Below are positions 34,901-62,343 of a stretch of DNA of 64,000 nt, in pieces. The notes under the pieces were generated by a model. The model did not search any database and was not told the DNA's origin. It worked only from the letters and a program-made list of their open reading frames with translations. The stretch spans positions 160,263,630 through 160,327,629 of the forward strand of contig CM068824.1 in the NCBI GenBank assembly GCA_028554795.2. The letters run 5' to 3'. Position 1 is the stretch's first letter. Each line of letters begins with the position of its first letter. Source of the stretch: Sinohyriopsis cumingii (lineage: Eukaryota; Mollusca; Bivalvia; Unionida; Unionidae). Position numbers and translations under genes: made by a program.

Positions 34901-37900
34901 TGTTTTCAAAAACTGTATGTTTGGGCATGGAACTGGAAAAACCCACTCTCACTACTAGAATTCACAATTTTACCATTATTATTACTTTTTTATTATATAA
35001 ACCTTTTACAAAATGATACAATCTTTAGCTCTTTTTGCTTATCCTGTGGAACTACATAGTGTGACCCCACTATAGCACGCTGTTATAACACAAATTTGGA
35101 AATAACAAGATTGTGGCGTGGTTCCTGAAATTTCATATGCAAATATATTTCTCATGCATGAAAAAATATTTTTCCTTCTCAAAAGTACAAAAATAATGTG
35201 CAAAAAGTTTAACATTTGAGGAAGAGATCACGTGTGAGTTCTAATATAAGATGATTGTGGTGAGACTCTTGAAATTTCATATACATGTATTTTTCTCATA
35301 CGTGAAAACAAAAATTGTTCTTTTCAAAGGTATGAAAAATAATATTAAAAAGTATATTCAGGGATAACATATGGCTTTGCCAAAGTTGCAAATTGCAATT
35401 CTTTTTCCTTACTGGTGACAAAATATATGATCTGGCAATTATTTTTCTTTTCGTGACAACGTTGTTGGTTGTTTAAACTTGCATACACAATCTTGAGTTG
35501 GGAGTGGAGAAATTCAAAGGCACCGTGAAAGGAAGCTGCAAACTTTGATATAAAATGGATTGGAATCTATCTACTGTTACATAAACAAATCCTTTGCTCA
35601 TATTGACCAACCATCTTAACAGTGCATTGATATATCATAATTCACATATGCTGACATCTGACCTGAGTACAATATGCTATGATAGACCTGCTACTGGACT
35701 GGTTACAATTGACCAACCTTTGAAGGCAGGAATAGGAAGATGGGAATAGCTACAATCAACCAAATGAAATCTAATCCATTTTTTGTAAAAATGTACCCAG
35801 AAAAAATAATTTTGCTGAAACTTAAAACTGATTAGCTTTGAAGCACCAATCATTCTGTATATATACTAAGCAAATGAAAATTATTTCAGTCTCAATCAAT
35901 GTTCTACACTTATCTGATGTTGACACCACAATAACAAATTGACATTTGTTTGATCCTCCAACTTTGTCCTTTAGCTGTGACTTCAGTAACACATGCACCT
36001 TTCATCGAAGCAAGCCAACTACAACCTTCAAAAAAGACAAATCACCTTTCATCTATGGAAGTCAGCACCAAATTTAAATAAGAGCAATGGAATCTGACGG
36101 ATTGTCACATTTTCCAAAGTGACTGAAAGATGTATATTGTGCCCTGCAGTTTCCTTTTTGCAGGAAAAATATTTATGCATACAACTGCTACCAATGGCAG
36201 CATAAAATGCAAATTAAATTCCAATCTTTTGAAACCACAGATATCTGGCCGTCAAGTTAATTGAACGTGTTAAACTTTGTTCACATTTTTAATTTCACTC
36301 TGAATAGCCTCATCCCCTGCTTAGCCCCGGCAAGATCATAGCTGTCTATGGCTGTCCACAATCTAGGCCAATTTAAGTACAGGTACACACTGCATGTAAA
36401 TAACTACAGCTACATGCTACAGGTGAAAATATCACAGTGAATTGTTTAGTGACAAAAATGGGATACAGATCCAATGAGAACTACCATTTTATATATATGT
36501 GTTGTGTTTTCTAATGGGATGTGACTGGTATATGAATTTTATAACTTGATTTATACTCGAATTCATGAATTTTCCATCTACATGTACACTACTCAATGCA
36601 TTTTGGATTGTACTAAAAAAAATATAAGTTGTTGATAAACAAGTGTGTTCCAGGCTAGTTTTGTCTTCATTTAATCAAAACATGTATTTTTGCAACTGCT
36701 TTTATCACCCACCCACCCTGCCATATTTTGGTACATGCATCATTTTCTTCAGCTAACTGAATTCATTGGTTATAACACAGTTCAGTAGATAACATGGTTG
36801 GGTTATATGGACCCCAACCATCATCTTATAGTGGAGTCACGCTGTATTTACATTTATTTGGAAGGGTTTATTTTCCAAGAGTTTTTAGCAATTCTACTGT
36901 TTTAAATTGGAGAACTTTACTTCTAACTGGTTTCACATAGCTAGTATTGTGCTGATGTGCTTTTATAACATCATATATAATTCACCAACAAGAATTCAGT
37001 GTCCTTGTTCCAGCACTTGAATTCCAATCCTTACCATGCAATTTCTCATAGTCTCAGCCTCGGCTAACGTTGGTACGTGAGAAAGCCTGCCAGTAGCTTC
37101 TCGTGGGTCGGTGGTTCCTCCCGGGGTTTTCCAGGGTTCTTCCTCCACCAATTATACTGGCCGCCATGTATAGCCTATCTTGTGCTGAAAAATGGCATTA
37201 AACCCTACAACAACAACAGCAATTTCTCATAACCCAATTTTTTGTATGATCAATTCATGCAATTTCTCATAGTCTCAGCCTCGGCTAACGTTGGTACTTG
37301 AGAAAGCCTGCCAGTAGCTTCTCGTGGGTCGGTGGTTCTTCCCGGGGTTTTCCAGGGTTCTTCCTCCACCAATTATACTGGCCGCCATGTATAGCCTATC
37401 TTGTGCTGAAAAATGGCGTTAAACCCTACAACAACAACAGCAATTTCTCATAACCCAATTTTTTGTATGATCAATTCTGTTATTCTCACCTTCAATGTGT
37501 GATGACCAACCACACGTCTGGAGATGGTCAGGACCTTACTGAGGAGGGCATTGCCATTAATTTTAGCATATTCCTGTGCCATGAATGGCGAATGGTGAAC
37601 TACAGAAAATAACACTCGCAAAGCTCTTGCCTGGAGCTTTTCTGCCTCATGTTTCCCTACGCTGCTCTTCTCCATGGCAGAAAGCTCATAGATCTGAAAC
37701 AAATGAAGACCAGAAGTTTGGATGATATCCTATACTTGACTCTGCCGGTTGCGATCAGGTGTTAGAATTAGAGTACGTATTATCTCTGTTAAAGTTACTT
37801 AAAATTCTGGCTGTCCAAAGGAGACAAAACACTTACGAAGTAAAAATTATTGTTATACTATATTTCTTGGTCAAAATTCTTTCTTCACTAACAAATGGTT

Positions 37901-40900
37901 CTTTTATAAGTCGTTCCTTTATAACTTTTTATTTTTTATTTTTCTATGGTTTAACCTCTTGATTTATATCATTTCAATGCATAGTAGTGACATTCACTTA
38001 GCAATCATGAAGTTCCAGGTTTGATTCCTTGTTCTGACAAGTGAAATGTAATGGCAATTGTAAATGATCATCCATTTATGATTGATAGGTGACTCTCTAT
38101 GTACTGTAGGTTTCTTCCAACATAAAAAATACACAACTTCAAACGATGCATTAGGAACACTTAAAATTTAAAATAATTTATTAAAAATTAATTCTGAAAT
38201 ATAATGGAATATGTAACCATTACAATTTGTTAGTAAACTAACCACTACATCGCAAATACATCACTCCCAACTTTCTTTTGGCTTGTGTCTGCAATAAAAG
38301 TGCTTCATATCCTCTGCTTGCCATAACAACTGGCTGTCTCTCTTCAGACCAGTGAAAATAATATTACAAGTCAGTCTGATCAACACCCTGTACAGCTTGT
38401 ACAGGTATGGTAATCCTCTACAGCCACCCTGAATTTCCTACAGACTCCACATTTAATCATACCCAATGATATTTGTAATCTGAGTAGAAAAAATGAATTA
38501 TCTGCATGTCCTATTCACAGTGCAGCCGTGTTTTGTTTGTATCAATATCAAGTTTCAAATAAATTCAAATAAATTCAAATACATTCAAATCCATGCACAA
38601 TTACTCTGCATAACAGGTGTATATATAGAAGCTTGTCTAAAATTGGTGGTTCGCATGTTTAGAAAGGTAAAAGCTATACAATTTTCTGGCATTCCATTCT
38701 TCAAATATGCATGAAAGAGGTGATTTATTTACGTATTTCATTTGCATCCATAAAATAATTAGCTAATACTAAAAGAAAGAAATGTTCACAGAGTATTTCC
38801 CATTTTGATGTTTAAGGCATCACAAGATTAAATAAGTTCCTTATATATTTCCTTCATTTTTTAGATATAATAAAATCCAGTGTTTCAGCTATAAGTTCTG
38901 ATGCACCAATACAATCTCACTTATGTTAGACACATACATGGACACAACATAAAAAATCAGGACACTGATATGGACACAACATAAAAAATCAGGACACTGA
39001 CATGGACACACTATAAAAAATCAGGACACTGATATGGACACACTATAAAAAATAGGACACTGATATGGACACAACATAAAAAATCAGGACACTGACATGG
39101 ACACACTATAAAAATTCAGGACACTGACATGGACACACTATAAAAAATCAGGACACTGACATGGACACAACATAAAAAAATCAGGACACTGATATGGACA
39201 CAACATAAAAAATCAGGACACTGACATGGACACAACATAAAAAATCAGGACACTGATATGGACACAACATAAAAAATCAGGACATTGACATGGACACTCT
39301 ATAAAAAATCAGGACACTGATATGGACACACTATTAAAAATCAGGACACTGACATGGACACACTATAAAAAATCAGGACACTGATATGGACACACTATAA
39401 AAAATCAGGACACTGATATGGACACACTATAAAAAATCAGGACACTGATATGGACACAACATAAAAAATCAGGACACTGATATGGACACAACATAAAAAA
39501 TCAGGACACTGATATGGACACAACATAAAAAATCAGGACACTGATATGGACACAACATAAAAAATCAGGACACTGATATGGACACAACATAAAAAAATCA
39601 GGACACTGATATGGACACAACATAAAAAATCAGGACACTGATATGGACACAACATAAAAAATCAGGACACTGACATGGACACACTATAAAAAATCAGGAC
39701 ACTGATATGGACACAACATAAAAAATCAGGACACTGATATGGACACAACATAAAAAATCTGGACACTGATATGGACACAACATAAAAAATCAGGACACTG
39801 ATATGGACACAACATAAAAAATAAGGACACTGATATGGACACAACATAAAAAATCAGGAAACTGATATGGACACAACATAAAAAAATCAGCTAAGGTAAT
39901 GTTGCATCTTCTAACAATAGCTGCATTTGAATGCAACTGCTGCAAAATTTTTAGTTCAAGTGATCTTTCCAAAACCAGCCAAAACACACCTGGCTGCTTT
40001 TTCATCCAGTGTAAGAGTCAAGATGCTGAACTTAATAAACATTTTCTTTTCTGTTTAGGCTTTAATACCGCATTATGTTGAATAGAAGTAACATTCTTCT
40101 CTGCTTATCAAATCTGTAGGAATCAAAATATTTAAAATAATTATGCTTTGGAGTGTTTGGATTATATGGAACATCAATAAGGATCAATGGGATTAATATA
40201 AATTGCAATATATTATTGATCTTTTCTATTTATCATAATTAACACTAATTTCCATCCAAATACATGTAACTGCAAATAAATATTTGATGTCTTTTCATCC
40301 TATTATCAGAAAACTGATTAAAAAGTTTTTAATAAGTTGGAAGAAAGTACTTCTGCAATGAAATTTTATTAGCATTTGTTATTCAAACAATGCTATTATT
40401 AAAGCACAATTAAGATCCTGTCAAACTATATCAGGGGATTTCCTCTTAGAATCAGGATTTGAATGATGTCCCTTTACAAAGCTCAACTGAATTTTTCAAG
40501 ACCAAAATGTTAAATGAGCTAAATACAGAAAAATGCATATTATTTGAAACTAAAACTATTTTTAGTAACAGAAGAGCAGATGTCATAGGCTTTGGAGGGA
40601 AATCTCTCCAAGCCAAAAATGGGTTTAAAAATTTATTACTGATTTTCTATGGTACCTAAATAAGATGCAATAGCAACTAACTGGCTAATTTAGTGGAGAG
40701 ATACTTGAAAAGAGTGTTCTGATTTAGCACAAATATTAGTTACAACTATTGGATGCCAATGAAGAAAAACTCACTTCCACCTTGGAAAGCAGAAAGATTT
40801 TACACATTTTTATTTAAAAAAAGAAGCCGAAAGTTAACATCTTACTTAGCCTGGAAGTCTGGATTTGTGAGGCAGTGGATGTTTTCCTAATAAACTGTTG

Positions 40901-46900: not shown

Positions 46901-49900
46901 TCTCTTTGATTTACCTAACTTCAAATGAACTGGGTTGTTCCACTTCATGTACTTTACCTATGCAAATTAGCCAAGCAGGGTCTCCAACCACTGTGCTGAA
47001 AAAACTTTCACACAAAATAACCCTTGGTGCAATTGTCTGTCGAAAAGGTAATTTGTACAATAGTGTCTGTTTATCTCTGACTGGCTTTACCTTTAAGCTG
47101 AATCCATGTCAATTAACTATATAAATTGTCCCATGCTGACATGTTTGCAAGAGTGTTAGGCATGACTGTTCACTATTTATATAGGCTATAAGTTATGGGC
47201 ATATATCATGGTGTCAAGAAACCAATCAATCTCTCTCTCTCTGCCCCCCACTCCCGATCTTTCCTTCATAAGATTTGATGGCAGTCGTGTTTTTACAAAC
47301 ACAAACATGTCATGGGTTTGGGAGTCAAAAACTGTTTTGGCATGACACTTTGTACAAATGTTAAGAGGGGTTAGACTGCATATACCTAAGTTAATGCTCA
47401 AAATCCCAAATCAAAGCAGTGGACCAGAAAAGTCCTTGGTAAATATACTGCATATTTAAAAGTCTTTGGTAAATATACTGCATATTTAAAAGTACTTGGT
47501 AAATATATTGCATATTCAGAATTACATACCCTCAGTTCATCTAAGCTCACTTTCTTAAGACCCACGAGGATGTCATACTGTATCTTTGCCTGCAGCACTA
47601 CATTTTTCTTCAAAAGTGGAGCATAGGTAAAAATGTCTTCTGCTCTATCACATTTGCTGATAGATTGGCAACTGGGACCAAGAGCATATAAATGGAAACA
47701 CAAGTCCTTGCTTTCAATGGCACCTGTAATAAATACAACAATGTAAATTGATGGATCATGATTAACACTAGCAATCATTATCAAATACAATGAAACCCAG
47801 CTATACCATCCTTCATTACGACACAAATTCAGATATAACATGATTGTGGCATGGCTTCTGTAATACATGCAGCAATTTTAATTGATGAATTATGATTAAC
47901 ACACAGGAATTATTATCAAATATAATGTATCTTTTATGAAATCAATGGAAGAAATTAAGAAAATATTTGGCAGACTTGTTTCTTGCAAGGTTTCTATTCC
48001 TTCTCTGCAAGCTGCATGTGCAAATAGTGAAAAAAATGTACCCATCATTTCATACTAGTTTCCTATCTGATATTTATGAATTCCAAAAACTGAAATCAGC
48101 ATTAAATTTTAGTACTGTCATTACCCTAAGTCTCTGGACATTAAAAAATAATTACTTTTCTTTCTATTTAAATAAATTATATGCTAATGAAATTCATAAT
48201 ATTTCCACACTGTCATACCCATAAAATAAATATGTATTTTCATGCTTGTCTATCAATGTTCCCCATAAGATAGATGCTGGTTGAAAGTGGTCTGGATGGG
48301 TAAACTACCTTTCAGTAGCTTCTTGCTTGCCAAAATTCACACTTTCTAGATGATGTATATAAGTGATTTCTTATACAAATCAGAATACTGGTTGGAATTC
48401 TTTCTATTTGCAAAACTATGACTGTCTGCTCATGTTGTATATGTACTACCAATGGTGATAAGTATGAACAGTGACCAGTACCCACCACTGAATGGCTCTA
48501 AATGACATCTGATTTTGGTAAACTCTAGGTTAACTTATGAATTATGGCAGATTATTATCATGTTGCTTAATCTCTCTGACATATAAAGTTTTAACAAAAT
48601 CAACTGATTAAAGCCCAACAAGTCACAGTCATTGATAGAAATTTGACCATGATACAGGTAATAATAAAATAGGCTGATTGGAGTGAGTTCTAATATCAAG
48701 CATGTTTTGTGATGTTAATCGTTTCTGACAACAGAAATGTCTACAGTATCCATATTATGTTACCTCTGAAAATCTGAAAAATATTTCAATTTGTTTTTTT
48801 CAAAAATGTCTGAGCCAACCTTGACATTACAAGTTTAAATAAGGTGATTTCTGCTCTAAATATGCAAATAAACCAAATTACTTAGACTGGTTCAAGAACT
48901 CAAGTGTTTCTGATTTAATGTTCATGACTGCTTTGTTTCCATTAGTAACCTCTCCAATGGTTTAAATAAAATAAATCTGCAGTCATATGTTGACTTAATG
49001 TAATGTTGATGACTATTAATTTACAATAATGAAAGTGCTTAATTAATCAATCTGACCCACTGTCATAATAAGATTTTTTTTCTCTCTTTATCATCACCTC
49101 TAACAAGTTTGCAACTTGCTTTGTTATGGAACTTCATAAAACAAGCTCTGGAGAATGTCAGCTGTTTTTGTTTTCTGCCTATTGAAACACCTTCAGTTAA
49201 TCCATTTGATAATGAGAGTAACCAAAAGGTTTCACTGTCTAATTTGTCACTTATACATTCTGAGCACAGGTAAAACATTCCTTAACTGACGTTCCATCTT
49301 GATTTGTTATCATCAGCTTTAACAAACTATTGTTGTCCAGAAATGTTAGGTACTATTCAAAATTATTATAAATTTTGAAAATAAATAGTCTGTAAAATTG
49401 GATAATCTGTATGACAGTACTAACACTAAAGAAAGAACTGCAAAAAGGGTTCAGTACCTTATAATGTCTTGCAAGTTAAACAAATTTGTGAACTTCAGGT
49501 GAAAAGAAAAATGGGCGAGTTTAATTACAAAAACATTGCATTATATCTCACCTGAGAAGTTTTTGAACACATATAAAATCTTAAAGCTGCTACTTCACAT
49601 TAAATATTTTAAATTCTTTATTCCTTAAATTCTTTAAATTCTTTTATATACCTCTTTTAATCAGCTTTTAAAAATATCAATTGCAGAAGACAAATAGTGA
49701 CATCTGAAATAAGGAAAATTCTCCACAATTTTAGCAGAATTTCTCTCCTGCATATTATATTTAATAATAAAGATGTATCCATATAGAACAGATAGTCAAT
49801 CAAATTAAAGAAAGCTCAGTTTAATATATAAGGGCAAAAGTCTAGTTGAATAAGGGCCATAACTCCATTAAATTTGTCACAAAATGTGGAAAACTAAAAC

Positions 49901-55900: not shown

Positions 55901-58900
55901 AATTACGCCAAATACAAACTATCCACAAAGTTTTGTAAGTAATGATTGTGATAAACGTATTAGTTTTTGTGCCGAAACAATTTTTCAGTCAGTGACCTCA
56001 ATCTTTGACCTTTTGATCCTGAAATCAACAAGGTTCTTTCTCACCCCACATGCAATCCATCCACAACATTTGCTAACTGTAGATGGTTGACATCTCAAGT
56101 TTGTGTCTGGAAAGGAAATTGGTAACTGATGGATGGACAAGATCATAAAATAATACCCTCTGCTTTATGGCATAGTCACTGGGATTTGATTATTTGGTTT
56201 AAATATGCATTTTGGCACAATGCCTGTGCACATGTTCATGCATAGAATTTTCAGTTAGGGACTCTGGATCCAAACTCCTGACCTGCAGATCCAGGATCTA
56301 TTCTAGGAAAAGCCATTGTCATCCAACTGATTTCAAAAACATTGTGCACAAAGAAAAAGCAATAATGTAATGTGGGAAAATTGCAATAAATTTTGCAAGC
56401 CCTATTTTGTTTATTTCATTCAATTTCCCTTATATTTAATGAATCCCCTACCCCCAAGGGCACACACATGATGCAGCTGCTCCACATAAACTGCCCAGAT
56501 AAGTAGCAGTTTATGTCAACTAAGTGGCATCTATTAAGTTAAATAAATAATAAATTCCTGAACGTGTAAAAACTATAAATTAAAACAAAATTCTCAATCA
56601 AAACCATAAATGTAACAAAATTTTAACCATTAACTAAGGTAATGGTTAACTAGGAATTCAGCCTCTACAAATTGCCTGTTGATGCATGTATGTACAGGTA
56701 TCAATTCAAATAATCATCAAAGAAAGCCCTAAATCTTACATATTTGGTACTGTATGTAAATGCTTATAAGTCCATCTGCAAAGTGCACAGACCCAGATCT
56801 GATGTCACATAATATGCTGACAGATCTGGATCTCTACAGTTTGTTATAAGTAATCAGAAGAACAAACAATACAGACCTTGATCTGCAGGTGTATTATGTT
56901 ATCGAGGATCACAATCTTTGTTGTCTACAGTTTGACTCGACTAATAAGGGAGTAAATACAGTAGCTATTGTTGTAGTGGACATCTCATCATCTATATGAA
57001 TGTATCTATAGGTTTCTCACATATCTCTCAAAACTATTATATTGCTGACTTTTCATATTATGAAAACACGAATTGACAGAATCTTCCAAATGTGACGGAC
57101 CATTGTAGGATCATCAAGCCTTAGTGAGTAGGATGTCCTAGGTGTTCCTGCCAAGTCCCTTGAACAAATCTTATTCCTGAGTGTAGGAATTCTGTCTCCT
57201 ACCCACATGCATTGGGAAAATTCATTTTATTAGCTAAAGCACCCATTAATTCTGTGAACAAGTTTCAAGAAATGAGAAGTCTGTGTATGATTTGTGCATT
57301 CCAAACTACAACATGAAGTGACCGACATTACAAAGGGTAGGCGTTAACCTTTTGGATTAGTTTTTTTTCTAGATCCATGTAAAATATGGGATAACTCTCT
57401 CTGGTGGGCAAAAGAAGCTGTGATTTAAGAGTTTACAACAGACTTGGGAAGACTTAAATCAACTACATTCCTTTCCATATCGGTTTCATCAAAATAGAAT
57501 TTTGTATCCACACTAGAGAGATAATCTTGACCTGTAAATTTTACTGTGTTGCTACTGACACCATCATCCACAAGCTGACACCACAAGGCAACACTAAAGC
57601 CCTTCTGGAATGGTGGCCATGTGAGGGAGCTAAGTAGTGAGGTTTGAATGGCAGATATCCCCCACACTTCTTGATAGTGAAGTTTCTTCTCTGCCTCAAC
57701 AGTATCTGCAAATATACATATGATATTGTTGCTGACCAAGAGATTTCTTATAAATATAAACAGTTTGTGCACTCAAAGAAAAATCAGCATATATATTTCA
57801 CATTTAAAATATGTTTTTACTTACAGTTACTGGCAAAAATAAACATTTTGAGTCCAATGACAATCATTTTTTTCATTTTTACGAATAATTGTTATATGTT
57901 CATGTGAACCAATCAATGTCGCATTTGTCATTTTTATTTTGGTATGCATACCTAGACCAGAAAGTTGGATTTTTTCATTTTATTTCATAAGCTTTCTTTG
58001 TGATTTATATTTATTTTACTAAACAGTACCCTCTGTCAATGCAGGTTTAGTCTACTTTTCTGAACAGATAATCTGACCTTGTCAATATAGTCACATTCCT
58101 TTATGCCACAGTATGGTAGATGAAGATATGCTGCATGGAAATTGTTGTATTTAGAGTTTAGGGATCATTTTCAAATAATTTAGGGATAATTAAAACATAC
58201 AGTTATGAATGCAAGTTAATGCAATGTTTTTTTGCAGTAAAACAATTTGAGAACTGAGTATTAGCCACAAGACAACCTGTGTTCCAAATGACTTTTATTA
58301 GCTACAAGACAACCCGTGTTCCAATTGACTTTTATTAGTTACAAGACAACCTGTGTTCCAAATGACTTATTAACTACAAGACAACCTGTGTTCCAAATGA
58401 CTTTTATTAACTACAAGACAACCTGTGTTCCAAATGACTTTTATTAACTACAAGACAACCTGTGTTCCAAATGACTTTTATTAGCTACAAGACAACCTGT
58501 GTTCCAAATGACTTTTATTAACTACAAGACAACCTGTGTTCCAAATGACTTTTATTATCTACAAGACAACCTGTGTTCCAAATGACTTTTATTAACTACA
58601 AGACAACCTGTGTTCCAAATGACTTTTATTAGCTACAAGACATCCTGTGTTCCAAATGACTTTTATGGACAGAGATAACAAAGAACTTAAAAAACTTGGT
58701 TAATGTATAAAAAAATCCAATTTTTTATGACATTATAATACACCTTTTAGAAAAAAACACTGTGGTACTAAAACCTTTCTATACATGGTGGATTTTTAGA
58801 AAAAGTGGAACAACTGGATTGTAACATAAACCAAACTGACAACACATAAAAGAAATCTTTACAACATATTACAATCTAGCTGCCTTAATTCTACCCAAGC

Positions 58901-61900
58901 TGTTCTAATGCAAAAACTGTCAGAAAAAAAACAATGACTTAATTTATTTTACAAGCATTTAAAATTTATTTTAGATAAATCGTTTCTACCTAAAATGATG
59001 CATTAATTGAACAGCTGGACATGAATATGTTCATGGCATACATATTGGGCATGCTAAGAATTGAAAAATGCTGGTATATGTGGTTCTACTGGCAGTAGGA
59101 CATAAGTTCAGTTTCAAAGGGCATCTATCGCAAGTACCATTTTATACATAAAATCTACTGCTTTTGAAAATCACAAGATTATAAAAAGTAATTAAATAGC
59201 CAAAAGATGGTATTTACATGTTCTATAAAAACATTAGAGAAACTAGCCAGAATCAGTCGAATGAAGACTGGAAATGTTGTGATAATTATGCATGGAAAAT
59301 CTATTGTTCAAGAACAGCCAACTTGTGTTGTCCACAACAAACTGTTAATTGATTACCTTATTGATGGAATATTGAGAGTTCAAAGCCAAAAGTGGAATAA
59401 CTTTTGAAGTGAAGGAGTAAAAGGTTGTCATGATTTCTTCTGAGCCTTTGATGATAATCAGCCAACCAATACCAGAAGGGATTTAAGAAGGAGACCAACA
59501 ATAATAAATCATTTTAGCAGACACACTAGAGAAAGTTTTGGGATAATTTCTCATGTTTAATTGTCCTTGTAATGTTTACGGTGTTTTAAGATTAATATTT
59601 ATGGGCAGCTTTTGCATTTTTTTTAATCAATTCATAGCATAATGCCAAATGCATGCTTTCTCCCAAATGCTAAGAAACCACAGGATAAAATATATTACAA
59701 ATTCAACAGTGCATGGATATTAGAGTTTTTAAGTGGGTGCAGGTTAGTAGCAAGGTCCTGAGTTTGCATTGTGTGTTTTAAAGGTATGCATTTTTGTATT
59801 TCACACACATAAATTAAATTCAATCCCTAGATGAAATATAATAATTAACAGTATATTACAAGATAATTGTGTGTGTGTGTGATTTGGATTTTTAATGTAG
59901 CTTTAAAAAAATTTCAGTCATATCGCTATGATGTCCGCAGTGTGACAGTTTATAGTGATGTCTAGCACGGGGGCATCATGCTGCAGACATGTAGCATGAT
60001 GTCCCAACCAGTCACATTATCCCGACACCAGGCCGACCAGTCTTAACACTAAGCTCTTAATGCTGAGAGCCAAGCAAGGCATCTGTTAGTAGCATTTTTG
60101 TAAGTCTTTGGTATGACTCGGACAGGGATCAAACCCAAAACCTCCCACATCCTACATGATAATTCATTTTAAAGTTGGGATAAATTATTCATAAAGCATA
60201 AATACATCAAGTACTTTTCATCATTTATTTAAAGTCTAAATCATTCTGTTTTTCTTTTAAATTCACAGTGGTGAAACCTGCCAACAAATGTTTGTATCTA
60301 CGCCAAAGAAAAAAGTTCCTGAGGATGAGACTTTGGAATTCATCTAAAGTCCAAATCGAGAACTTTCCCCATGGAGTGAACCTAGCTCGGTTTATTGGTA
60401 GCAGTCATCAACCTTACAAACCCAGGAACAGGAAACTGAAGCAAAAAGTTATCTGCTGGCTGATCATAGCTGTCTTGTCAATACAACAGTCTTGTGCTGA
60501 TGCAGAGAGGACATTCTCCATTCTTAGAAAAATACAAAGTGATTCAGGGGAAATCTGAACCAGACAACTATTGAGAGCCTGTTAAGTGTGAAGCTTAATA
60601 ATTACAGTGACTGTCATCAGTGGTCATCAGTGGTCAGAAAATTGTAATCTTCTGAAGACAGCTAAAAATGCTACTGGATGTTATCAAAAAAATTTTTGCA
60701 GTGAACTGTAAGATAAACAACTCTTACCTTTTTTATTAACTGATAATATACTGACTCACATCAAAATAGTCACATGATATCAACAGTAAACCATCATCCA
60801 ATGTTGTTGCACAAAACATTTGAAAATATTAAATGAAAGTCATGTAATGTTTGCAAATAAATATAATACACAACTAATTCTCAACATATTTATTCTGAGA
60901 ACAACGACCAGAAACCTGTTGGTATCGCAGCAAGATATAGAAAATCAGATTCATCAAGTATTGAGCATGTTTCAATGATGTTTTTGTTGGTATCAATTGA
61001 CCACCGAACTGACATGTGTTCTCTGCTTGGTGAATCTGGTTTCCTCCAAGTTGCTGCGACAGTAACAGAATTTTGGTCGGTCACTGTTTCCAGAATAAAC
61101 AGTTTGGGATGTTCTTACATTTTTTAATAAAGAATACATGACTTATCATTTATATTTTCAATCTGATATCCTACAGCAACAATGAAAATGGTTTATTGTT
61201 GATGTCATGTGACTATTTGACCTCTGATGTCATTAATATGTAGGTTGCAAGATTTGTGTAGTCATGTGACTAGCAATGCAATTGGCAAGTTCCAGGTAAA
61301 TTTCATCAATGCTGTAGTTTCCTCTCATCTGTCATTGGATTGAAGACATAATAAATGGTATACTCACAATTCCTGGTTTATATAACAAATTTTCGCCATA
61401 TATTTTAAGCATTTTATACTGATACCATTATCTTTTATCTTATATAACTTTAAAAGAATTATACCATTTTAAACTTTTATCCTTTATCTTGTAGGACCAC
61501 ATGCTTACATTTACTTTGAAAAGTTTATTTCCCACACATTTTTGCAACTTTTACCATAAAGTTTACATTTTTAGAACATAACTTCAATTCAGCACTATAT
61601 AGCCAAGATTGTGTTGACATGCTGCTAAACTTCATATATAATACAAACATGTGCAAGGACTAAATGTTTTCAATAAAATTCTGTTCATAAAAAAAAAACT
61701 TTTCACCATAATTTTGGTACATGTCTAAAATCTTACCCTGTATGTTGTGATCCTTACCCTGTATGTTGGGATCCTTACCCTGTATGTTGGGATCCTTACC
61801 CTGTATGATGGGATCCTTACCCAATATGTTGGGATCCTTACCCTGTATGTTGGAATCCTTACCCTCTATGTTGGGATCCTTACCCTCTATGTTGGGATCC

Positions 61901-62343
61901 TTACCCAATATGTTGGGATCCTTACCCTGTATGTTGGGATCCTTACCATGTATGATGGGATCCTTACCCTGAATGATGGGATCCTTACCCTGTATGTTGG
62001 GATCCTTACCTTGTATGTTGGGATCCTTACCCTGTATGTTGGGATCCTTACCCTGTATGTTGGGATCCTTACCCTGTATGATGGGATCCTTACCCTGTAT
62101 GTTGGGATCCTTACCCTGTATTTTTGGAGCCCCTATCATCAACATGCTGGACATAGCTTTAAAGAAAGGAACCACTTTGGAAGGATGAACAGGGGGTTGA
62201 TCAAAAGATCCACTCTCAAGGAAGTCCCTTTTGTTGTCATCTTCTGGCCGGGGCTCAGTCACCTTCACTGGAAACCTTACAGAATGGTATGGCAAGAGTG
62301 GGGAATTTTCAACAATCGTCAACAACACTGACAATAAATTATC
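1361..62343 (-). CDS. LYST: LYST-like BEACH-family protein, middle part of gene (14 exons, both ends outside window)
   Basis: LYST is a very large cytosolic BEACH-family scaffold that controls the size and traffic of lysosomes and lysosome-related organelles; its loss causes Chediak-Higashi syndrome in mammals. Fourteen minus-strand exons with GT-AG borders join in matching phase. Translated, they follow vertebrate LYST as I remember it, in order: a lectin-like segment ([33 protein letters not shown]), then [66 protein letters not shown] and [14 protein letters not shown]. About 1,010-1,040 codons are present of a protein that has about 3,800 residues in human. No start, stop, PH, BEACH or WD40 region lies in the window. 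Other BEACH proteins (WDFY3, neurobeachin) share the general architecture, but the run of short matches fits LYST best. Introns are 1-6.9 kb and packed with repeats. Confidence 0.9.
2290..4015 (-). pseudogene. DIRS-like retrotransposon remnant (reverse transcriptase, RNase H end, tyrosine recombinase)
   Basis: Reading right to left there are pieces typical of DIRS polyproteins. The RT motif [12 protein letters not shown] is at about 3985-4005, and a degenerate WLHDWLI box with a NLEKLNL tract is at 3680-3810. An RNase-H-end segment [16 protein letters not shown] is near 2790-2840. The tyrosine-recombinase C-terminal part, [16 protein letters not shown] then [13 protein letters not shown], is at 2298-2430. 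Many stops and frameshifts separate them. The recombinase Arg expected after HD(V) is Gly here. Order and spacing fit one ancient element inserted antisense relative to the window and in the same direction as LYST. Short open frames elsewhere in 2098-5613 are unrecognised. Confidence 0.75.
4055..4318 (-). mobile_element. tRNA-derived SINE, full length (family S-A)
   Basis: Read on the minus strand, the head contains an A-box-like AGTGGCCAAGTGGTCTAAGG and a B-box-like GGGTTCAAGTCTCAG, as in Leu/Ser tRNA. It is followed by a conserved body (gagaaagcttgccagtagct, ggtggttctttttggggttt, atactggcctccatgtatag) and an AAC-rich tail. The copy is somewhat diverged. It is the only one in the window with the tRNA head. 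It sits at the edge of the DIRS-like remnant. Confidence 0.88.
4320..6045. other. Unassigned intronic DNA
   Basis: Several open frames of 60-100 codons on both strands, none recognisable. The stretch 4350-5640 might be the 5' (gag-like) part of the adjacent DIRS remnant, since it lies on the correct side and is less AT-rich than its surroundings, but no motif supports it. Confidence 0.4.
6050..6190. repeat. Palindromic element (family P), copy 1
   Basis: Arms acaaactgcacag.aaccagatctg and cagatctggga.atgtgcagtttg face each other over a loop of about 22 bases. The outer left arm (ttgtttgttctacttattac) matches the right arm of the copy at 56765-56900 in reverse complement. It looks like a small foldback/MITE family. 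Confidence 0.75.
6298..6440 (-). CDS. LYST: LYST exon 13 of window (second helical region)
   Basis: The acceptor gtatttatctag is followed by GT CTG TTG AAG (phase 1); the donor is ATCAAG|GTAAGT (phase 0). The product, [19 protein letters not shown] then [18 protein letters not shown], matches human 'GLYELLSGVLLILPDVLLE' and 'LLVLVNHPSPAIQQGVIK' almost position by position. A 45-bp hairpin-forming tandem array begins about 56 bp upstream of the acceptor, inside the same intron. Confidence 0.93.
6497..7247. repeat. 45-bp tandem array of hairpin-forming units
   Basis: About 17 units of 43-45 bp. Each contains the perfect inverted repeat TGCATTGC...GCAATGCA around a 9-base loop (tggcctact), followed by a 'agtatagtacactgtaat' spacer. 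Open frames on both strands across it, rich in Cys and His, are by-products of the repeat. The array lies in the LYST intron and its edge is about 56 bp from the acceptor of exon 6298-6440. Confidence 0.95.
7515..9868. repeat. 27-bp minisatellite, about 87 units, with higher-order pattern
   Basis: The unit contains acattaattaggg followed by tgcatggtggtct. Most differences between units are at a few fixed positions (gggatgc, gggttgc, ggtatgc or agagctgc; tctaca, tctgca or tctata). Variant types recur every 4-5 units in the first half (for example the 'tatattaattaggtatgc' type) and in another order in the second half, which points to amplification of multi-unit blocks. Since 27 is a multiple of three, long open frames exist on both strands. 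They contain only the repeated 9-residue motif and are not taken as genes. Confidence 0.96.
9985..10390. repeat. R1 family block
   Basis: Three diverged units marked by ggccatattggatatcagat, ggccatactggatgtttgat and ggccatactagatgaataat, each followed by a catcattttgt-like tract. It lies between the 27-bp array and LYST exon 10910-11545. Confidence 0.75.
10910..11545 (-). CDS. LYST: LYST exon 12 of window (Ser/acidic linker, start of second helical region)
   Basis: The longest exon seen: acceptor ctttttag, donor TGTGTTG|GTAAGT, phase 1 at both ends, 636 bases. About 190 residues are rich in Ser, Asp, Glu, Lys and Gln, likely disordered, with clusters such as [15 protein letters not shown] and [11 protein letters not shown] that look like phosphorylation-prone linker. 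The last 20 residues, [17 protein letters not shown], turn into an amphipathic helix. They match the vertebrate helix before 'CCGLYELLSGVLLILPD'. The corresponding vertebrate linker is also long, Ser-rich and poorly conserved. Confidence 0.85.
11830..13265 (-). pseudogene. L1-like LINE reverse transcriptase remnant, interrupted by its own 66-bp amplification
   Basis: Right to left: [20 protein letters not shown] (RT domain entry) at 13150-13215, then the 66-bp array built from ...[10 protein letters not shown], then [10 protein letters not shown] at 12458-12490. Next come broken frames with SGLLLL, '[20 protein letters not shown]' near 12190-12270, and 'FRLLGLDF', '[13 protein letters not shown]' near 11950-12070. 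These follow the L1-clade order: palm entry, fingers, 'RQGDPLSPYLF'-like box, thumb. The YADD-type box is not recognisable. It is inserted in the LYST intron and oriented with the gene. Confidence 0.82.
12485..13140. repeat. 66-bp minisatellite derived from L1-like reverse-transcriptase sequence
   Basis: About 10 near-identical 66-bp units (aacccttttgaatgtcacta, then aaatggacgactttcttgac). On the minus strand each unit encodes a 22-residue motif including [15 protein letters not shown]. The flanks on both sides continue an L1-like reverse transcriptase in the same frame: [14 protein letters not shown] before the array, GRFLGD after it. The array therefore arose by amplifying an internal piece of LINE coding sequence. 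The last unit on the right differs most and joins the unamplified LINE. Confidence 0.93.
13270..14525. other. AT-rich intronic DNA
   Basis: No gene, array or element recognised; T-rich tracts dominate 13300-13900. Confidence 0.5.
14531..14694 (+). mobile_element. SINE family S-A, body and tail
   Basis: Body starting gtgagaaagcttgccagtag, with cggtggttctttccggggtt and tatagcctatcgtgtgctga, ending in a perfect (CAA)n tail. The tRNA head is missing, so the copy is 5' truncated. Confidence 0.9.
14700..16510. other. Intronic DNA, nothing beyond one microsatellite
   Basis: Small open frames at 15292-15550 are unrecognised and probably chance. The tract at 16380-16515 leads into diverged 55-bp units. 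Confidence 0.5.
15918..15976. repeat. (CT)n/(CA)n microsatellite
   Basis: Short (CT)n followed by interrupted and then pure (CA)n. Intronic. Confidence 0.95.
16515..18293. repeat. 55-bp minisatellite, about 32 units
   Basis: Units read ggtctgcatacaaggttatt, then ccacttgcatttcaatggtg, then gaattcattactgag. Each has a short inverted repeat ATTCCAC...GTGGAAT flanking a loop of about 13 bases. The left few units (16515-16740) are diverged and the rest nearly identical, with two recurring variants (gaatttc for gcatttc, ttagg for gaggg). It lies in the LYST intron downstream of exon 18469-18564; its edge is about 175 bp from that exon's donor. Open frames inside it are by-products. Confidence 0.95.
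18469..18564 (-). CDS. LYST: LYST exon 11 of window (polar linker)
   Basis: A short exon between the acceptor atggcacacag and donor GGCAAAG|GTAAGC, phase 1 at both ends, 96 bases. The 32 residues are Pro, Lys, Glu, Ser and Thr rich ([20 protein letters not shown] onwards), with no domain. It fits the low-complexity linker that follows the 'NTY...FYFSL' segment in vertebrates, where sequence conservation is poor. The call rests on splice sites, phase agreement with both neighbours and position rather than on similarity. It could be alternatively spliced, since phase 1-1 makes it skippable. Confidence 0.7.
18570..19875. other. Intronic DNA, nothing recognised
   Basis: No exon-like, repeat-array or transposon signal seen between LYST exon 18469-18564 and the LINE tail at 19880. 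Confidence 0.5.
19880..21190 (-). mobile_element. LINE with YADD-type reverse transcriptase, 5'-truncated copy
   Basis: A 275-codon frame (19981-20808) gives the RT thumb and C-terminal region: [49 protein letters not shown] and [16 protein letters not shown]. Upstream to 21190 the frame is broken by substitutions and a one-base deletion but still shows the YADDT box and [10 protein letters not shown]. The 3' end is a (ATT)n microsatellite at 19885-19915, as in CR1/L2-type LINEs. It is over 95 percent alike to the longer copy at 25905-29065 by eye and ends abruptly at 21190, hence 5' truncated. Confidence 0.9.
21475..21790. repeat. Dispersed repeat D1, copy 1
   Basis: Shares with 46905-47215 the runs tcaaatgaattgggttgttc, tacctatgcgaattagc, a middle part and agcatgactgttcat...cacatatc. 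Unclassified, no terminal repeats recognised. Confidence 0.7.
22637..22709. repeat. (GGAT)n/(GGTG)n microsatellite
   Basis: Tetranucleotide tract starting ggatggatggatggatgggt and continuing as (gggt)n, then back to (ggat)n. The poly-Trp/Gly or His/Pro/Ser frames it creates are by-products. Confidence 0.95.
23190..23704. repeat. R1 family block
   Basis: About five units marked by gattttcaacatggctgcc, gattttcaggatggcaacc and ggccatattggatgtgagat-like cores. The block runs straight into the 27-bp TG-rich array. Confidence 0.8.
23705..24512. repeat. Degenerate 27-bp TG-rich minisatellite
   Basis: About 30 units of 20-30 bp around the theme gtttcttgtcatgaatgtg then tgtgtaaa. Lengths differ through gain or loss of TG steps. 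Frames across the array give Cys-, Val- and Met-rich or His- and Thr-rich peptides without homologues known to me; they are not counted as genes. The array follows directly on a block of the 'ttttcaagatggc' repeat family and lies about 200 bp downstream of the LYST exon 24713-24911 donor. Confidence 0.93.
24713..24911 (-). CDS. LYST: LYST exon 10 of window (armadillo-like region)
   Basis: The acceptor ttctaccacag is followed by GAG CGT ATA CAG (phase 0); the donor is TGGTGGG|GTATGT (phase 1). The product contains [35 protein letters not shown] and STFYFTLWW. It matches human 'IIAEVLGSPPDLELLTIIFN', 'LLAVHPPTNTYVCHN' and 'TNFYFSL'. The 'HP..NTY' motif is a strong LYST signature. A degenerate 27-bp TG-rich array starts about 200 bp downstream in the intron. 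Confidence 0.93.
25310..25904 (+). mobile_element. Second LINE, 5' piece (host of a nested insertion)
   Basis: Plus-strand frames read [20 protein letters not shown] near 25350, then an open 112-codon stretch: [50 protein letters not shown]. This is the RT C-terminal region of a CR1/L2-like LINE from a family distinct from the minus-strand copies. There are stops and a frameshift near 25800. It stops at 25904 where the minus-strand LINE begins and resumes at about 29066. Confidence 0.87.
25905..29065 (-). mobile_element. LINE with endonuclease and YADD reverse transcriptase (longer copy)
   Basis: Right to left: endonuclease start ([28 protein letters not shown]) from about 29050; endonuclease end ([30 protein letters not shown]) at 28345-28626; linker and RT entry (28448-27468, ending [17 protein letters not shown]); RT core (27407-26442) with [32 protein letters not shown] and LYADDTTLS; and the C-terminal part to 26021. 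The tail is (TAA)n at 25905-25950. Frameshifts near 28700, 28370 and 27430 and a 127-bp tandem duplication (26314-26440 and 26441-26567) make it inactive. The style is CR1/L2/Jockey-like; the clade is not certain. Confidence 0.9.
29066..29422 (+). mobile_element. Second LINE, 3' piece after the nested insertion
   Basis: [20 protein letters not shown] then [20 protein letters not shown] is the usual C-terminus of CR1/L2-like ORF2. It is followed by a 3' UTR and the tail gctatacaaagtcctcatta with (TTA)n to 29422. It continues the piece at 25310-25904 on the same strand with perhaps 20 residues missing at the joint. Confidence 0.87.
29425..31560. other. AT-rich intronic DNA, nothing recognised
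   Basis: Only short unrecognised open frames (29822-30070, 30826-31049). Confidence 0.5.
31564..31839 (-). CDS. LYST: LYST exon 9 of window (armadillo-like region)
   Basis: The acceptor ttgttttag is followed by GTG TTG ATG GAT (phase 0); the donor is TACCAG|GTTAGT (phase 0). The 92 codons include [18 protein letters not shown] and [20 protein letters not shown]. They match human 'IQDVKLLEELLLDWKIW' and 'ADHHQQMFNIKQLLKAQVV' closely, among the best-conserved segments in the window. The distance from the preceding exon's 'LK' to the LLLNW motif is within one residue of human. The two exons therefore join directly and the DIRS fragment between them is intronic. Confidence 0.93.
31842..33065. 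other. Intronic DNA, nothing recognised
   Basis: The frame at 32823-33140 ([15 protein letters not shown]...) runs into the antisense of the DIRS fragment and is taken as chance. Confidence 0.5.
33070..33755 (-). pseudogene. DIRS-like retrotransposon fragment (RNase H end and tyrosine recombinase start)
   Basis: The open part (33070-33432) reads [20 protein letters not shown], then [20 protein letters not shown] and [10 protein letters not shown], then [16 protein letters not shown]. This is the core-binding domain and start of the catalytic domain of a DIRS-type tyrosine recombinase. Upstream to about 33755 a broken frame keeps 'GLWAFAYPL' and '[15 protein letters not shown]'-like pieces of the preceding RNase H/linker region. 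No catalytic tail is present, so the element is truncated. At first sight it could pass for a LYST exon, but adjacent LYST exons join without it. Confidence 0.82.
33760..35050. other. Intronic DNA, nothing recognised
   Basis: Two overlapping opposite-strand frames near 34689-35059 have no known relatives. Confidence 0.5.
35057..36846. mobile_element. Possible non-autonomous DNA element with imperfect terminal repeats
   Basis: The left end GTGTGACCCCACTATA, with TTATAACAC further in, faces a right end whose reverse complement reads GCGTGACTCCACTATA, with TGTTATAACC further in. TA lies close outside. Such ends resemble Tc1/mariner-type termini. Inside, a segment of about 125 bp (gattgtggcgtggttcctga, aaatttcatatgcaaatata) is repeated at 35245-35330. 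No transposase is visible. The boundaries are tentative. Confidence 0.4.
37070..37218 (+). mobile_element. SINE family S-A, body and tail (copy in tandem duplication)
   Basis: Contains gagaaagcctgccagtagct, gtcggtggttcctcccgggg, actggccgccatgtatagcc and a short CAACAACAG tail. Duplicated with its flanks; the second copy follows at 37291-37440. Confidence 0.9.
37291..37440 (+). mobile_element. SINE family S-A, second copy of the tandem duplication
   Basis: Same SINE body as at 37070-37218 with a handful of substitutions (acttgagaaag for acgtgagaaag; cttcccgg for cctcccgg). It did not insert separately but was copied with flanking DNA. Confidence 0.9.
37490..37693 (-). CDS. LYST: LYST exon 8 of window (armadillo-like region)
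   Basis: The acceptor ttgtttcag and donor TTGAAG|GTGAGA bound 68 codons, phase 0 at both ends. The product includes [17 protein letters not shown], then [24 protein letters not shown]. This matches human 'TQALALRVILSLIKYNQ' and '[23 protein letters not shown]' at the same spacing, typical of paired amphipathic helices. On its intron side, a 221-bp tandem duplication carrying a SINE ends only about 10 bp from the donor. Confidence 0.9.
37700..38930. other. Intronic DNA, nothing but a small 11-bp repeat
   Basis: Four copies of an aaataaattc-like 11-bp unit at 38555-38590; otherwise no feature. Confidence 0.5.
38931..39892. repeat. 32-bp minisatellite, about 30 units
   Basis: Units read tcaggacactgatatggaca then caacataaaaaa. 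Two two-state positions (gatatgg or gacatgg; acaacat or acactat) are shared among units in blocks. The array is otherwise very regular, suggesting recent expansion. It is intronic, between LYST exons 40979-41233 and 37490-37693. Confidence 0.95.
40979..41233 (-). CDS. LYST: LYST exon 7 of window (armadillo-like region)
   Basis: The acceptor ctctttag is followed by AAT TCT CTA CTG TTG ATG TAC (phase 0); the donor is GCAAAG|GTAGGT (phase 0). The 85 codons read [20 protein letters not shown], a Gly/Gln linker, then [20 protein letters not shown] and AVLFLVAK. They correspond to human 'VVYTTYCPAQYTIYEPVI', '[20 protein letters not shown]'. The segment lies just after the lectin fold and begins the helical repeats of LYST. 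The insect-to-human spacing of these motifs is preserved, so no exon seems missing here. Confidence 0.9.
41236..42640. other. Intronic DNA, nothing recognised
   Basis: AT-rich, no exon or element signal between LYST exon 40979-41233 and the pogo-like element. Confidence 0.5.
43886..43904. repeat. (GA)n microsatellite
   Basis: Pure GA tract of about 19 bases inside the pogo-like element. Confidence 0.9.
44577..45452 (+). pseudogene. Pogo-like transposase remnant, DDE domain missing
   Basis: An open 100-codon start ([20 protein letters not shown]) has an AT-hook-like PVGRPKK and a helix-turn-helix start, [16 protein letters not shown]. An in-frame TGA at about 44877 is followed by [15 protein letters not shown], another TGA, then [18 protein letters not shown] and [20 protein letters not shown]. 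This is the CENP-B/pogo-type second DNA-binding domain. The catalytic DDE region is absent. In its place are two copies of a segment of about 80 bp (45170-45245 and 45445-45530) around an acidic tail ([16 protein letters not shown]). The pogo assignment rests on the DNA-binding part only. Confidence 0.8.
46255..46480. repeat. Degenerate tandem repeat of about 21 bp
   Basis: Roughly ten diverged units on the theme aatcacaaactctcaatcagt, with several single-base changes and small deletions. It is older-looking than the other arrays. It lies in the LYST intron between exons 47530 and 41233. Confidence 0.85.
46905..47215. repeat. Dispersed repeat D1, copy 2
   Basis: Matches 21475-21790: tcaaatgaactgggttgttc, tacctatgcaaattagcc and ggcatgactgttcac. 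The open frame at 46813-47124 lies within it and is not recognised. Confidence 0.7.
47429..47518. repeat. Three-copy 30-bp repeat next to a LYST donor
   Basis: Three copies of a 30-bp unit containing ttggtaaatatactgcatat lie 12 bp beyond the donor of LYST exon 47530-47723. Small and near-perfect; a seed of a minisatellite. Confidence 0.85.
47530..47723 (-). CDS. LYST: LYST exon 6 of window (end of lectin-like domain and following helix)
   Basis: The acceptor gtatttattacag and donor CTGAGG|GTATGT bound 194 bases (phase 1 in, 0 out). The start [20 protein letters not shown] matches human '[20 protein letters not shown]', the last strand of the lectin fold in BEACH proteins. The next residues, [17 protein letters not shown], match the helix 'REL...VDIGLLIESL'. 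A three-copy 30-bp repeat follows directly downstream of the donor (47429-47518). Confidence 0.88.
47730..50085. other. Intronic DNA, nothing firm
   Basis: A short stretch at 47790-47865 (gaaacccagctatacc, gataacatgattgtggcat-like) resembles the left end of the possible element at 35057. Otherwise nothing recognised. Confidence 0.45.
50089..50272 (-). CDS. LYST: LYST exon 5 of window (lectin-like domain)
   Basis: The acceptor ctatttgtag is followed in frame by ACA ACA GTT (phase 0); the donor is TTCAAAG|GTGGGC (phase 1). The product has [13 protein letters not shown] then [14 protein letters not shown]. This matches the vertebrate strand with 'FCMIGHCLSSQEE' and 'WDLGNLLLFNG', the late beta strands of the lectin-like sandwich. 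Sixty-one codons plus one base. The split Gly codon G|GT is completed by the exon at 47723. Confidence 0.87.
50275..51450. other. AT-rich intronic DNA, nothing recognised
   Basis: No exon, array or element recognised between LYST exon 50089-50272 and the eroded MITE relative. Confidence 0.5.
51455..51845. mobile_element. Diverged relative of the 62.9-kb MITE
   Basis: Shares with 63355-63720 the run cctaagttat..gaa.ctttcatagt, gtgattctaatc, atatgacccagccactttaa, gcagat, gggggttttcccc and repeated cacttccatgagaatgg units. Clear terminal repeats are no longer visible, so this is an old, eroded copy. Confidence 0.75.
52093..52228 (-). CDS. LYST: LYST exon 4 of window (lectin-like domain)
   Basis: The acceptor ttctgctag and donor GGACAG|GTAAAA enclose one base completing the previous Arg codon plus 45 codons. 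The product contains [18 protein letters not shown] followed by GSTLTGQ. The motif 'LP..W.H.V..Y' followed by a small insert and a GQ/GK strand is the classic Trp-His strand of laminin-G/concanavalin-A-like folds. It corresponds to 'FLPSKWQHLVLTYLQQPQG' in vertebrate LYST. Phase is 2 on entry and 0 on exit, consistent with both neighbours. Confidence 0.88.
52232..53485. other. Intronic DNA with one short direct repeat
   Basis: Three copies of a 20-21-bp unit (gttgttaagtaaccaagtgt-like) at 52568-52626. No other feature recognised. Confidence 0.5.
53491..53805 (-). mobile_element. tRNA-derived SINE, second family (S-B)
   Basis: On the minus strand the head reads AAGTGGTTAGAGCATCCACC (A box) and GGTTTGAACCCGTC (B box). 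The body contains ggactggttggcctagtgtc, ggataatgtaactgggtggg and gggatatgactaaaattgtt, and the tail is (CA)n-rich. This body resembles a tRNA-SINE family I recall as abundant in bivalves and other molluscs. A second, head-truncated copy is at 59868-60152. Confidence 0.88.
53985..54715. repeat. R1 family block
   Basis: About five diverged units with actttcaagatggcaacta, ttcatttatgaccaa and cataaaaagtcttttagtga motifs, same orientation as the other blocks. Confidence 0.8.
55020..55164 (-). CDS. LYST: LYST exon 3 of window (lectin-like domain)
   Basis: The acceptor aacattacag gives a phase-1 start; a second possible acceptor, acacctcag, gives a phase-0 start at 55144. The donor is ATTCAG|GTATTT, phase 2. 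Translation gives [20 protein letters not shown] then [17 protein letters not shown], which lines up with the human strand pair 'CIHIISLGSKALMIQVW' and 'ATLIFR'. These are central beta strands of the concanavalin-A-like sandwich. The split Arg codon (AG|A) joins cleanly to the exon at 52228. Confidence 0.85.
55440..56100. repeat. Tandem repeat with 'tgacctttgacc' core
   Basis: About four units of 150-190 bp containing ccttgacctttgaccttttg, then ccaaaatcaataaggttctt and an 'accatccacaaa..ttgctaac' tract. This theme is, from memory, very abundant in mollusc genomes. One unit holds a perfect TGACCTTTGACCT at 55861-55873, which is the reverse complement of a DR1 nuclear-receptor element. It lies in the LYST intron between 57437 and 55164. 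Confidence 0.8.
56765..56905. repeat. Palindromic element (family P), copy 2
   Basis: Contains gtgcacagacccagatctg and cagatctggatctctacagt with an extended right arm ttgttataagtaatcagaag then aacaaacaa, the reverse complement of the left arm of copy 1. Confidence 0.75.
57437..57705 (-). CDS. LYST: LYST exon 2 of window (start of lectin-like domain)
   Basis: The acceptor tatttgcag is followed by AT ACT GTT GAG (phase 1). The product contains [20 protein letters not shown], matching the remembered vertebrate LYST strand with 'HLSEGFSVSLWF', the opening beta strand of the concanavalin-A-like domain. The 3' border is ambiguous. A donor ACAG|GTCAAG (exon end 57532, phase 1) fits the phase of the next exon at 55164. 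A donor GTT|GTAAAC (exon end 57437, phase 0) includes 32 more open codons, rich in Asp, Ser and Lys, and would need an alternative phase-0 acceptor at 55144. The longer form is given because the extension looks coding, but both donors are weak. Confidence 0.75.
58261..58665 (-). repeat. 37-bp tandem array with repeated AATAAA and GU-rich tract on the LYST strand
   Basis: About 11 units of 37 bp lie in the intron between LYST exons 62115 and 57705. On the minus (gene) strand, most units read AATAAAAGTC and then, about 20 bases later, GGTTGTCTTGTAG. An AATAAA hexamer followed by a GU/U-rich element at that distance is the layout of a metazoan polyadenylation site. At least eight units keep the hexamer intact; one has AATAAG and the last has lost it. 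Whether any are used is unknown. The units are nearly identical, so the array looks recent. Confidence 0.9.
58670..60260. other. Intronic DNA outside the S-B SINE, nothing recognised
   Basis: A 66-codon frame at 59207-59407 is unrecognised. Confidence 0.45.
59868..60152 (-). mobile_element. SINE family S-B, head partly lost
   Basis: Same body as the copy at 53491-53805 (gtgacatcactataaactgt-like region, gacatcatagcgatatgact), a (CA)n tail on the low-coordinate side and a B-box-like ggtttgatccctgtccga. The A box is absent. Confidence 0.85.
60268..60680 (+). pseudogene. hAT-type transposase C-terminal remnant
   Basis: The open frame ends [20 protein letters not shown] then [14 protein letters not shown]. 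After a one-base frameshift near 60552 it continues [20 protein letters not shown]. 'S.ADAER.FS.L..I' followed by 'LN..T...LL..KLN' is the hAT dimerisation domain. The first 50 codons ([12 protein letters not shown]...) are not recognised. No terminal repeats or other transposase parts were seen nearby, so this is a stranded fragment in the LYST intron. Confidence 0.8.
60685..61730. other. Intronic DNA between hAT remnant and the donor array
   Basis: No feature recognised. The read-through frame from the 21-bp array ends at 61660. Confidence 0.5.
61731..62120 (-). repeat. 21-bp tandem array carrying an in-frame splice donor in every unit
   Basis: Eighteen full 21-bp units plus a terminal partial unit directly follow the end of LYST exon 62115-62343. 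On the gene strand each unit contains GGTAAGGATC and a variable ACATACAG-like part. The core GTAAGGAT is unchanged in all 18 full units; the terminal one reads GTAAGATT. Substitutions fall in the exon-side half (CAGG, TTGG, GAGG, CATG or CAAGG before GT). Because 21 is a multiple of three, each donor is in the same phase. Read through, the array encodes 18 GKDPNIQ-like heptads, then about 20 more residues and a stop near 61660. Each regular unit also holds a GGATCC site. Confidence 0.95.
62115..62343 (-). CDS. LYST: LYST exon 1 of window (pre-lectin region)
   Basis: The exon begins after an acceptor reading cttgcag and starts in phase 0 with [20 protein letters not shown]. It ends in phase 1 at CAGG|GTAAGG, after GAPKIQ. 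The 76 codons correspond to the linker just before the lectin-like domain of vertebrate LYST: a short hydrophobic helix, then a charged Pro-rich stretch, then [15 protein letters not shown], which resembles the human NSKAMGLLRRA segment. The donor is the first of 19 near-identical donors in a 21-bp tandem array lying directly downstream. Any of them keeps the frame, so the 3' border is not certain; the first is chosen as the shortest form. The next exon inward starts with AT, completing a GAT codon. Confidence 0.8.

Follow-up and report, generated by a model that had tools for sequence, protein, structure and literature searches.

The window analysed here is a stretch of 64,000 nucleotides from the bivalve Sinohyriopsis cumingii, and its minus strand carries part of a gene that the first-pass annotation had named LYST. 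By tblastn, 14 exons matching residues 1191-2203 of the LYST protein of Potamilus streckersoni (P0001) were found in the same order and on the same strand, and a junction search restricted to GT or GC donors and to AG acceptors gave a GT-AG solution for 13 of 13 junctions. This confirmed the name of the gene as well as the limits proposed for the exon at 62115-62343. The database name of P0001 is Lysosomal-trafficking regulator; its entry lists PF02138 (BEACH) and PF00400 (WD40), in a region outside the window, and the protein matches neurobeachin and WD40 chains among solved structures.

The exon of interest (62115..62343, minus strand; 229 nt, phase 0 to phase 1) was placed by a tblastn match from P0001 residue 1191 and by junction fit, and the acceptor CCTTGCAG lies directly upstream of it. 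It shows 88-89% identity to P0001 and 82% identity to the LYST of Sinanodonta woodiana (P0002, a partial protein). As these two relatives are freshwater mussels, the window accordingly looks like that of a unionid-like mussel. The exon is followed by an intron of 4409 nt (57706..62114, minus strand, from the junction fit) and by the next LYST exon (57532..57705, minus strand, from tblastn and junction fit), which starts with AT. When the assembly (2.905 Gb, 1138 contigs) was searched, each of these two exons was found once, both at the LYST locus, and no second copy of the array locus described below was found in this one assembly.

A 21-bp array at a LYST exon end

At the start of the intron lies a 21-bp minisatellite (61732..62128, minus strand; consensus unit GTAAGGATCCCAACATACAGG), which consists of 18 full units and flanking half units. 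Tandem Repeats Finder reported a period of 21, 18.9 copies, 93% matches, 0% indels and a score of 675, in line with the description of a minisatellite as head-to-tail units of roughly 10-100 bp. In gene-sense order, exon 62343-62115 ends with ...AAAATACAGG, after which GTAAGGATCCCAACATACAGG is reiterated with a 21-bp period. The exon end CTCCAAAAATACAGG is similar to the repeat unit, and the array starts within the exon, the last 14 nt of which are already part of the repeat. The array had initially been placed at 61731..62120; its presence was upheld, but the limit on the exon side was not, as the Tandem Repeats Finder call takes in 8 more bases of the exon. Across the 2.9-Gb genome, GGTAAGGATCCCAWCATACA has 11 exact matches, all of them within the LYST array, while the reversed control gave 0. 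The array is thus not a chance pattern.

In gene sense (minus strand), the array contains 19 GTAAG sites, at 62114, 62093 and onwards to 61736, with a spacing of exactly 21 bp. The sequence is GTAAGGAT at 18 of these putative donors and GTAAGATT at the final one. Donor 1 (AGG/GTAAGGAT, the slash marking the exon-intron boundary; 62113..62114, minus strand) is where the two unionid gene models discussed below make their join, and donor 19 (AGG/GTAAGATT; 61735..61736, minus strand) is the most intron-proximal. The reading frame is open across the array and encodes 18 heptads with the consensus GKDPNIQ; in a retained intron it would run on to a stop (61663..62114, minus strand). All 19 donors leave the exon in phase 1, and with the AT that opens the next exon (57705) the junction codon G/AT encodes Asp after any donor; therefore each use would add whole heptads and keep the frame. 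The proposals of 19 in-phase donors, of a phase-1 junction with an AT start, and of an open heptad frame with the capacity for a ladder in 21-nt steps (here open to 61663) were all in agreement with these results.

Arrays elsewhere in the window and the genome

To place the LYST array in context, we considered 16 arrays in the window, a set in which overlapping repeat rows were merged by hand and six short rows were left out. Together they cover 15% of the window. Only 1 of the 16 overlaps a LYST exon, where random placement expects a mean of 2.8 (P for one or fewer = 0.17). The large minisatellites in LYST introns are those at 7520-9866 (27 bp x 87) and 16515-18299 (55 bp x 32.5); further ones are found at 38938-39890 (32 bp x 29.7) and 12486-13140 (66 bp x 9.9). 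Another LYST exon ends at 47530, and 14 bases from it starts a 30-bp array of three copies (47428-47516); the gene-sense frame of this array is open and encodes decapeptide repeats, and no GTAAG was seen in the stretch inspected. On the intron side of the LYST exon whose end is at 37490, a 221-bp tandem duplication (37035-37477) lies 13 bases away. The LYST introns also contain open frames at 19984-21006 and 26024-29222 on the minus strand, in gene orientation, which presumably resemble the reverse transcriptases of two related non-LTR-type elements.

Genome-wide, three GGTAAG motifs at 12-42 bases from start to start gave 12,428 overlapping matches, and the reversed motif gave 27,845. Donor arrays as an enriched class were rejected on this comparison. 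Among the matches listed, the first 16.3 Mb of one contig (C1) holds 19 GGTAAG arrays when grouped by eye, for four of which only one spacing was measurable. Four of the 19 keep phase and have an open frame, and AG/GTAAG occurs in five. A start at a coding exon was shown for none of these 19 when upstream frames (19 of 19), Pfam (3 of 19) and solved structures (1 of 19) were consulted, which is no proof of absence. It seems to be the location at a real exon end that is uncommon at LYST, rather than the donor array itself.

Two of the listed arrays have features of their own. One is a 25-bp array (L058, G000:C1:15655403-15655508) whose unit GTAAGATAAGTATTATTCTCTACAG resembles a miniature intron, with a donor and a pyrimidine-rich acceptor in the units listed. 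The other is a 28-bp array (L051, G000:C1:10707057-10707118) with strong CAG/GTAAGTC donors after an open frame of 81 codons. As this upstream frame had no Pfam match and was only weakly like solved chains, it is not shown to be an exon.

Donor scores and unit variation

The mussel donors were scored against a human table of donor base frequencies and by pairing with an 11-base U1 end. On these measures, array donors 1-19 have table scores of 7.5-11.2 and U1 duplex energies of -8.5 to -10.0 kcal/mol, and none of the 19 falls outside the span of predicted strength seen at the other 12 LYST donors (table median 8.5, span 3.5-12.4; duplex median -8.9, span -7.2 to -11.4 kcal/mol). The LYST introns of the window hold 3295 further GT sites; 14 of these have a table score at least equal to that of donor 1 and 13 have as good a duplex energy. 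The best array donor is donor 6 (AAG/GTAAGGAT, beginning AAG/GTAAGG; 62008..62009, minus strand), which outscores donor 1 and is equalled or surpassed by 2 of the 3295 sites in table score and by 7 in duplex energy. Donor 19, the final one, is slightly weaker.

The predicted RNA structure of the array was no better than that of shuffled sequences (z -0.74; 20 of 100 shuffles at least equal). The 15 bases preceding the three CAG sites inspected in the array are 33-47% pyrimidine, compared to 60-87% at the 13 real acceptors, and splicing-out of inner units therefore looks unlikely.

The first-pass annotation had described an unchanged donor core flanked by about a dozen substitutions. More exactly, there are 15 variant cells of nine kinds in 7 of the 21 columns, and the longest invariant run is nine columns around the donor. 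The unchanged core is thus correct as a description, but it is not strong statistically: the P value for the nine-column run was 0.074 (nine changes) or 0.119 (eight changes) under random placement and 0.084 with permuted columns. With the 7-mer GGTAAGG treated as a hypothesis fixed in advance, its invariance has a P of 0.026-0.039. The same test on six other arrays of the window gave P values from 0.08 to 0.90, including 0.08 for a control 27-bp array without GTAAG. Units out of register were dropped in this test (units kept: 53/86 in the 27-bp control, 9/9, 30/32, 15/29, 8/11 and 3/13 in the others, and 18/18 in the LYST array). With post hoc P values of 0.07-0.12, selection on the donor core was not accepted as proven; the lower values under a prior hypothesis leave a hint of possible constraint. 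Since the 19 donors would be interchangeable, no single donor is expected to be under strong selection.

At the protein level, two of eight kinds of change are synonymous and six are not, when CA>TT is counted once. The 63 possible single changes in the unit comprise 12 synonymous changes, 49 non-synonymous changes and two stops. From these counts the substitutions look neutral for the protein, with no sign of protein constraint on the units.

Possible splicing of the array and its precedents

In the relatives, the junction reads APKIH-DTVETEKK in P0001 and APKIQ-DAVEAEKK in P0002, and both equal the join made in the window via donor 1. Heptads are absent from these two unionid LYST models, the only ones found; both are predicted proteins derived from annotation, one of them (P0002) partial, and may hide isoforms. 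No shorter LYST models were found at E <= 0.001 among 39 candidates. One search combining the three terms LYST, bivalves and alternative splicing found no literature, which does not prove absence.

The window LYST was aligned with the LYST proteins of five bivalves: two unionids, Mya, Mercenaria and Mytilus. The heptad insertion point falls in a short, gapped and weakly conserved stretch between KAMS and QEVW, and it is plausible from this alignment that the LYST linker would tolerate heptads. No solved-structure template for the linker was present among the best 60 of 223 P0001 matches, all 60 of which lie in the C-terminal neurobeachin-like and WD40 parts. The region after the linker may be lectin-like, with a weak likeness to Laminin_G_3 below the Pfam cutoff. 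An antifreeze-like beta-roll was considered for the heptads (Pfam LbR_Ice_bind, E 4e-05, 24.1 bits, below the cutoff of 30) and was rejected as a chance heptad likeness.

Work by Turri in 1995 is said to have found that a minisatellite in human IFI6 (G1P3) supplies multiple splice donors, and its unit is reportedly 12 bp long, in phase and present in about 26 copies. An in-phase unit would then be common to IFI6 and to the mussel array, although the mussel 21-bp unit adds seven residues, unlike that of IFI6. It has been stated that two downstream repeat units of IFI6 act as splice donors, giving three mRNA species and different isoforms, and that the 130-residue form predominates (PMC4526556). 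The likeness is that minisatellite units carry donors; the gene, the unit sequence and the phylum differ, and donor use is reported in IFI6, whereas the mussel donors of downstream units are candidates. In the VNTR of human ABCA7 intron 18, according to PMC5954066, the first GT is the canonical exon 18 donor, and the array has 23.7 copies in the reference genome and about 12 to about 427 units among alleles. The same paper describes a transcript junction that retains one VNTR unit, out of frame, and links VNTR length with Alzheimer risk as well as with altered exon 18/19 splicing, such as skipping of exon 19 (PMC5954066). On that account, both ABCA7 and mussel LYST have a tandem array that opens at the donor of the preceding exon. 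The ABCA7 unit is given as 25 bp, and one retained unit therefore shifts the frame, whereas the 21-bp mussel unit is in phase. The mussel array has as its first donor that of a coding exon (donor 1, at exon end 62115, by homology), and each of its 19 donors scores as competent. Judged from its letters, it is the same kind of object as IFI6 and ABCA7, in another gene and phylum.

We consider it somewhat better than an even chance (roughly 0.55) that the array is a tolerated minisatellite born at the junction, in which donor 1 dominates and a few downstream donors are used to a minor extent. A segment across the exon-intron junction of LYST, made up of the donor and about 12-14 bases of exon, would have been tandemly duplicated and have grown to 18 units. 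The likeness between exon end and unit makes it probable that the junction was the source of the copies, and the exact unit copies, which occur nowhere else in the genome, speak for such a duplication. Every copy would supply a donor of similar quality in one phase, and because the copied piece holds a donor and is 21 bp long, the array could have expanded without damage to the gene. Donor 1 is probably chosen in most transcripts, giving ordinary LYST, as suggested by the donor-1 homologue at the joins of both unionid models. A minority probably use inner donors, which would place one to a few extra GKDPNIQ heptads, presumably of no selected function, in a linker of variable length. The precedents IFI6 and ABCA7 count in favour of such minor use of downstream donors. 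Against dominance of donor 1 stands the higher score of donor 6. Classical work on duplicated donors, moreover, often favours the intron-proximal site, which would also disfavour donor 1.

The same two unionid joins, and the abundance of tandem GGTAAG clusters in this genome, would also fit an array in which only donor 1 is ever used and the remainder is intron filler. We regard this as doubtful, given that the downstream donors are about equal to donor 1 by both scores and that both human precedents are reported to use at least one further unit. It is unlikely that a downstream donor instead dominates and builds a long heptad linker into LYST, of 35 aa if donor 6, the best-scoring, were used or 126 aa if the intron-proximal donor 19 were used. 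The frame open across 18 units, the top score of donor 6, the variability of the linker among bivalves and the proximal preference among duplicated donors would be consistent with such a fixed insertion; the absence of heptads from both unionid models, the lack of protein constraint on the units and the slightly weaker last donor argue against it.

A regulated isoform ladder, with splicing factors or the length of the array as its control, is improbable. All donors are in phase, heptads appear tolerable in principle, and the invariant run around the donor reaches a low P when the 7-mer is a prior hypothesis, but this run is weak post hoc, the control array without GTAAG is comparable, and the ratio of changes is neutral. 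We give the same slim chance to a working in-phase ladder with 0 to 18 heptads, in which array length would be a heritable dial on linker length. Least probable is that the extra donors, 19 U1-complementary sites within 400 nt, mainly recruit U1 snRNP to strengthen exon definition or to suppress premature polyadenylation in the 4.4-kb intron, as donor 1 is already about average for LYST.

The two described examples of this kind that we found, which the first-pass annotation had not named, are both human. The LYST array offers a natural experiment on donor choice by the spliceosome, with up to 19 near-identical donors in one intron and single-base differences at donors 6, 9, 11 and 15 as internal controls. 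It also indicates that a minisatellite arising at the end of an exon can remain harmless when every unit includes the donor and has a length divisible by three.
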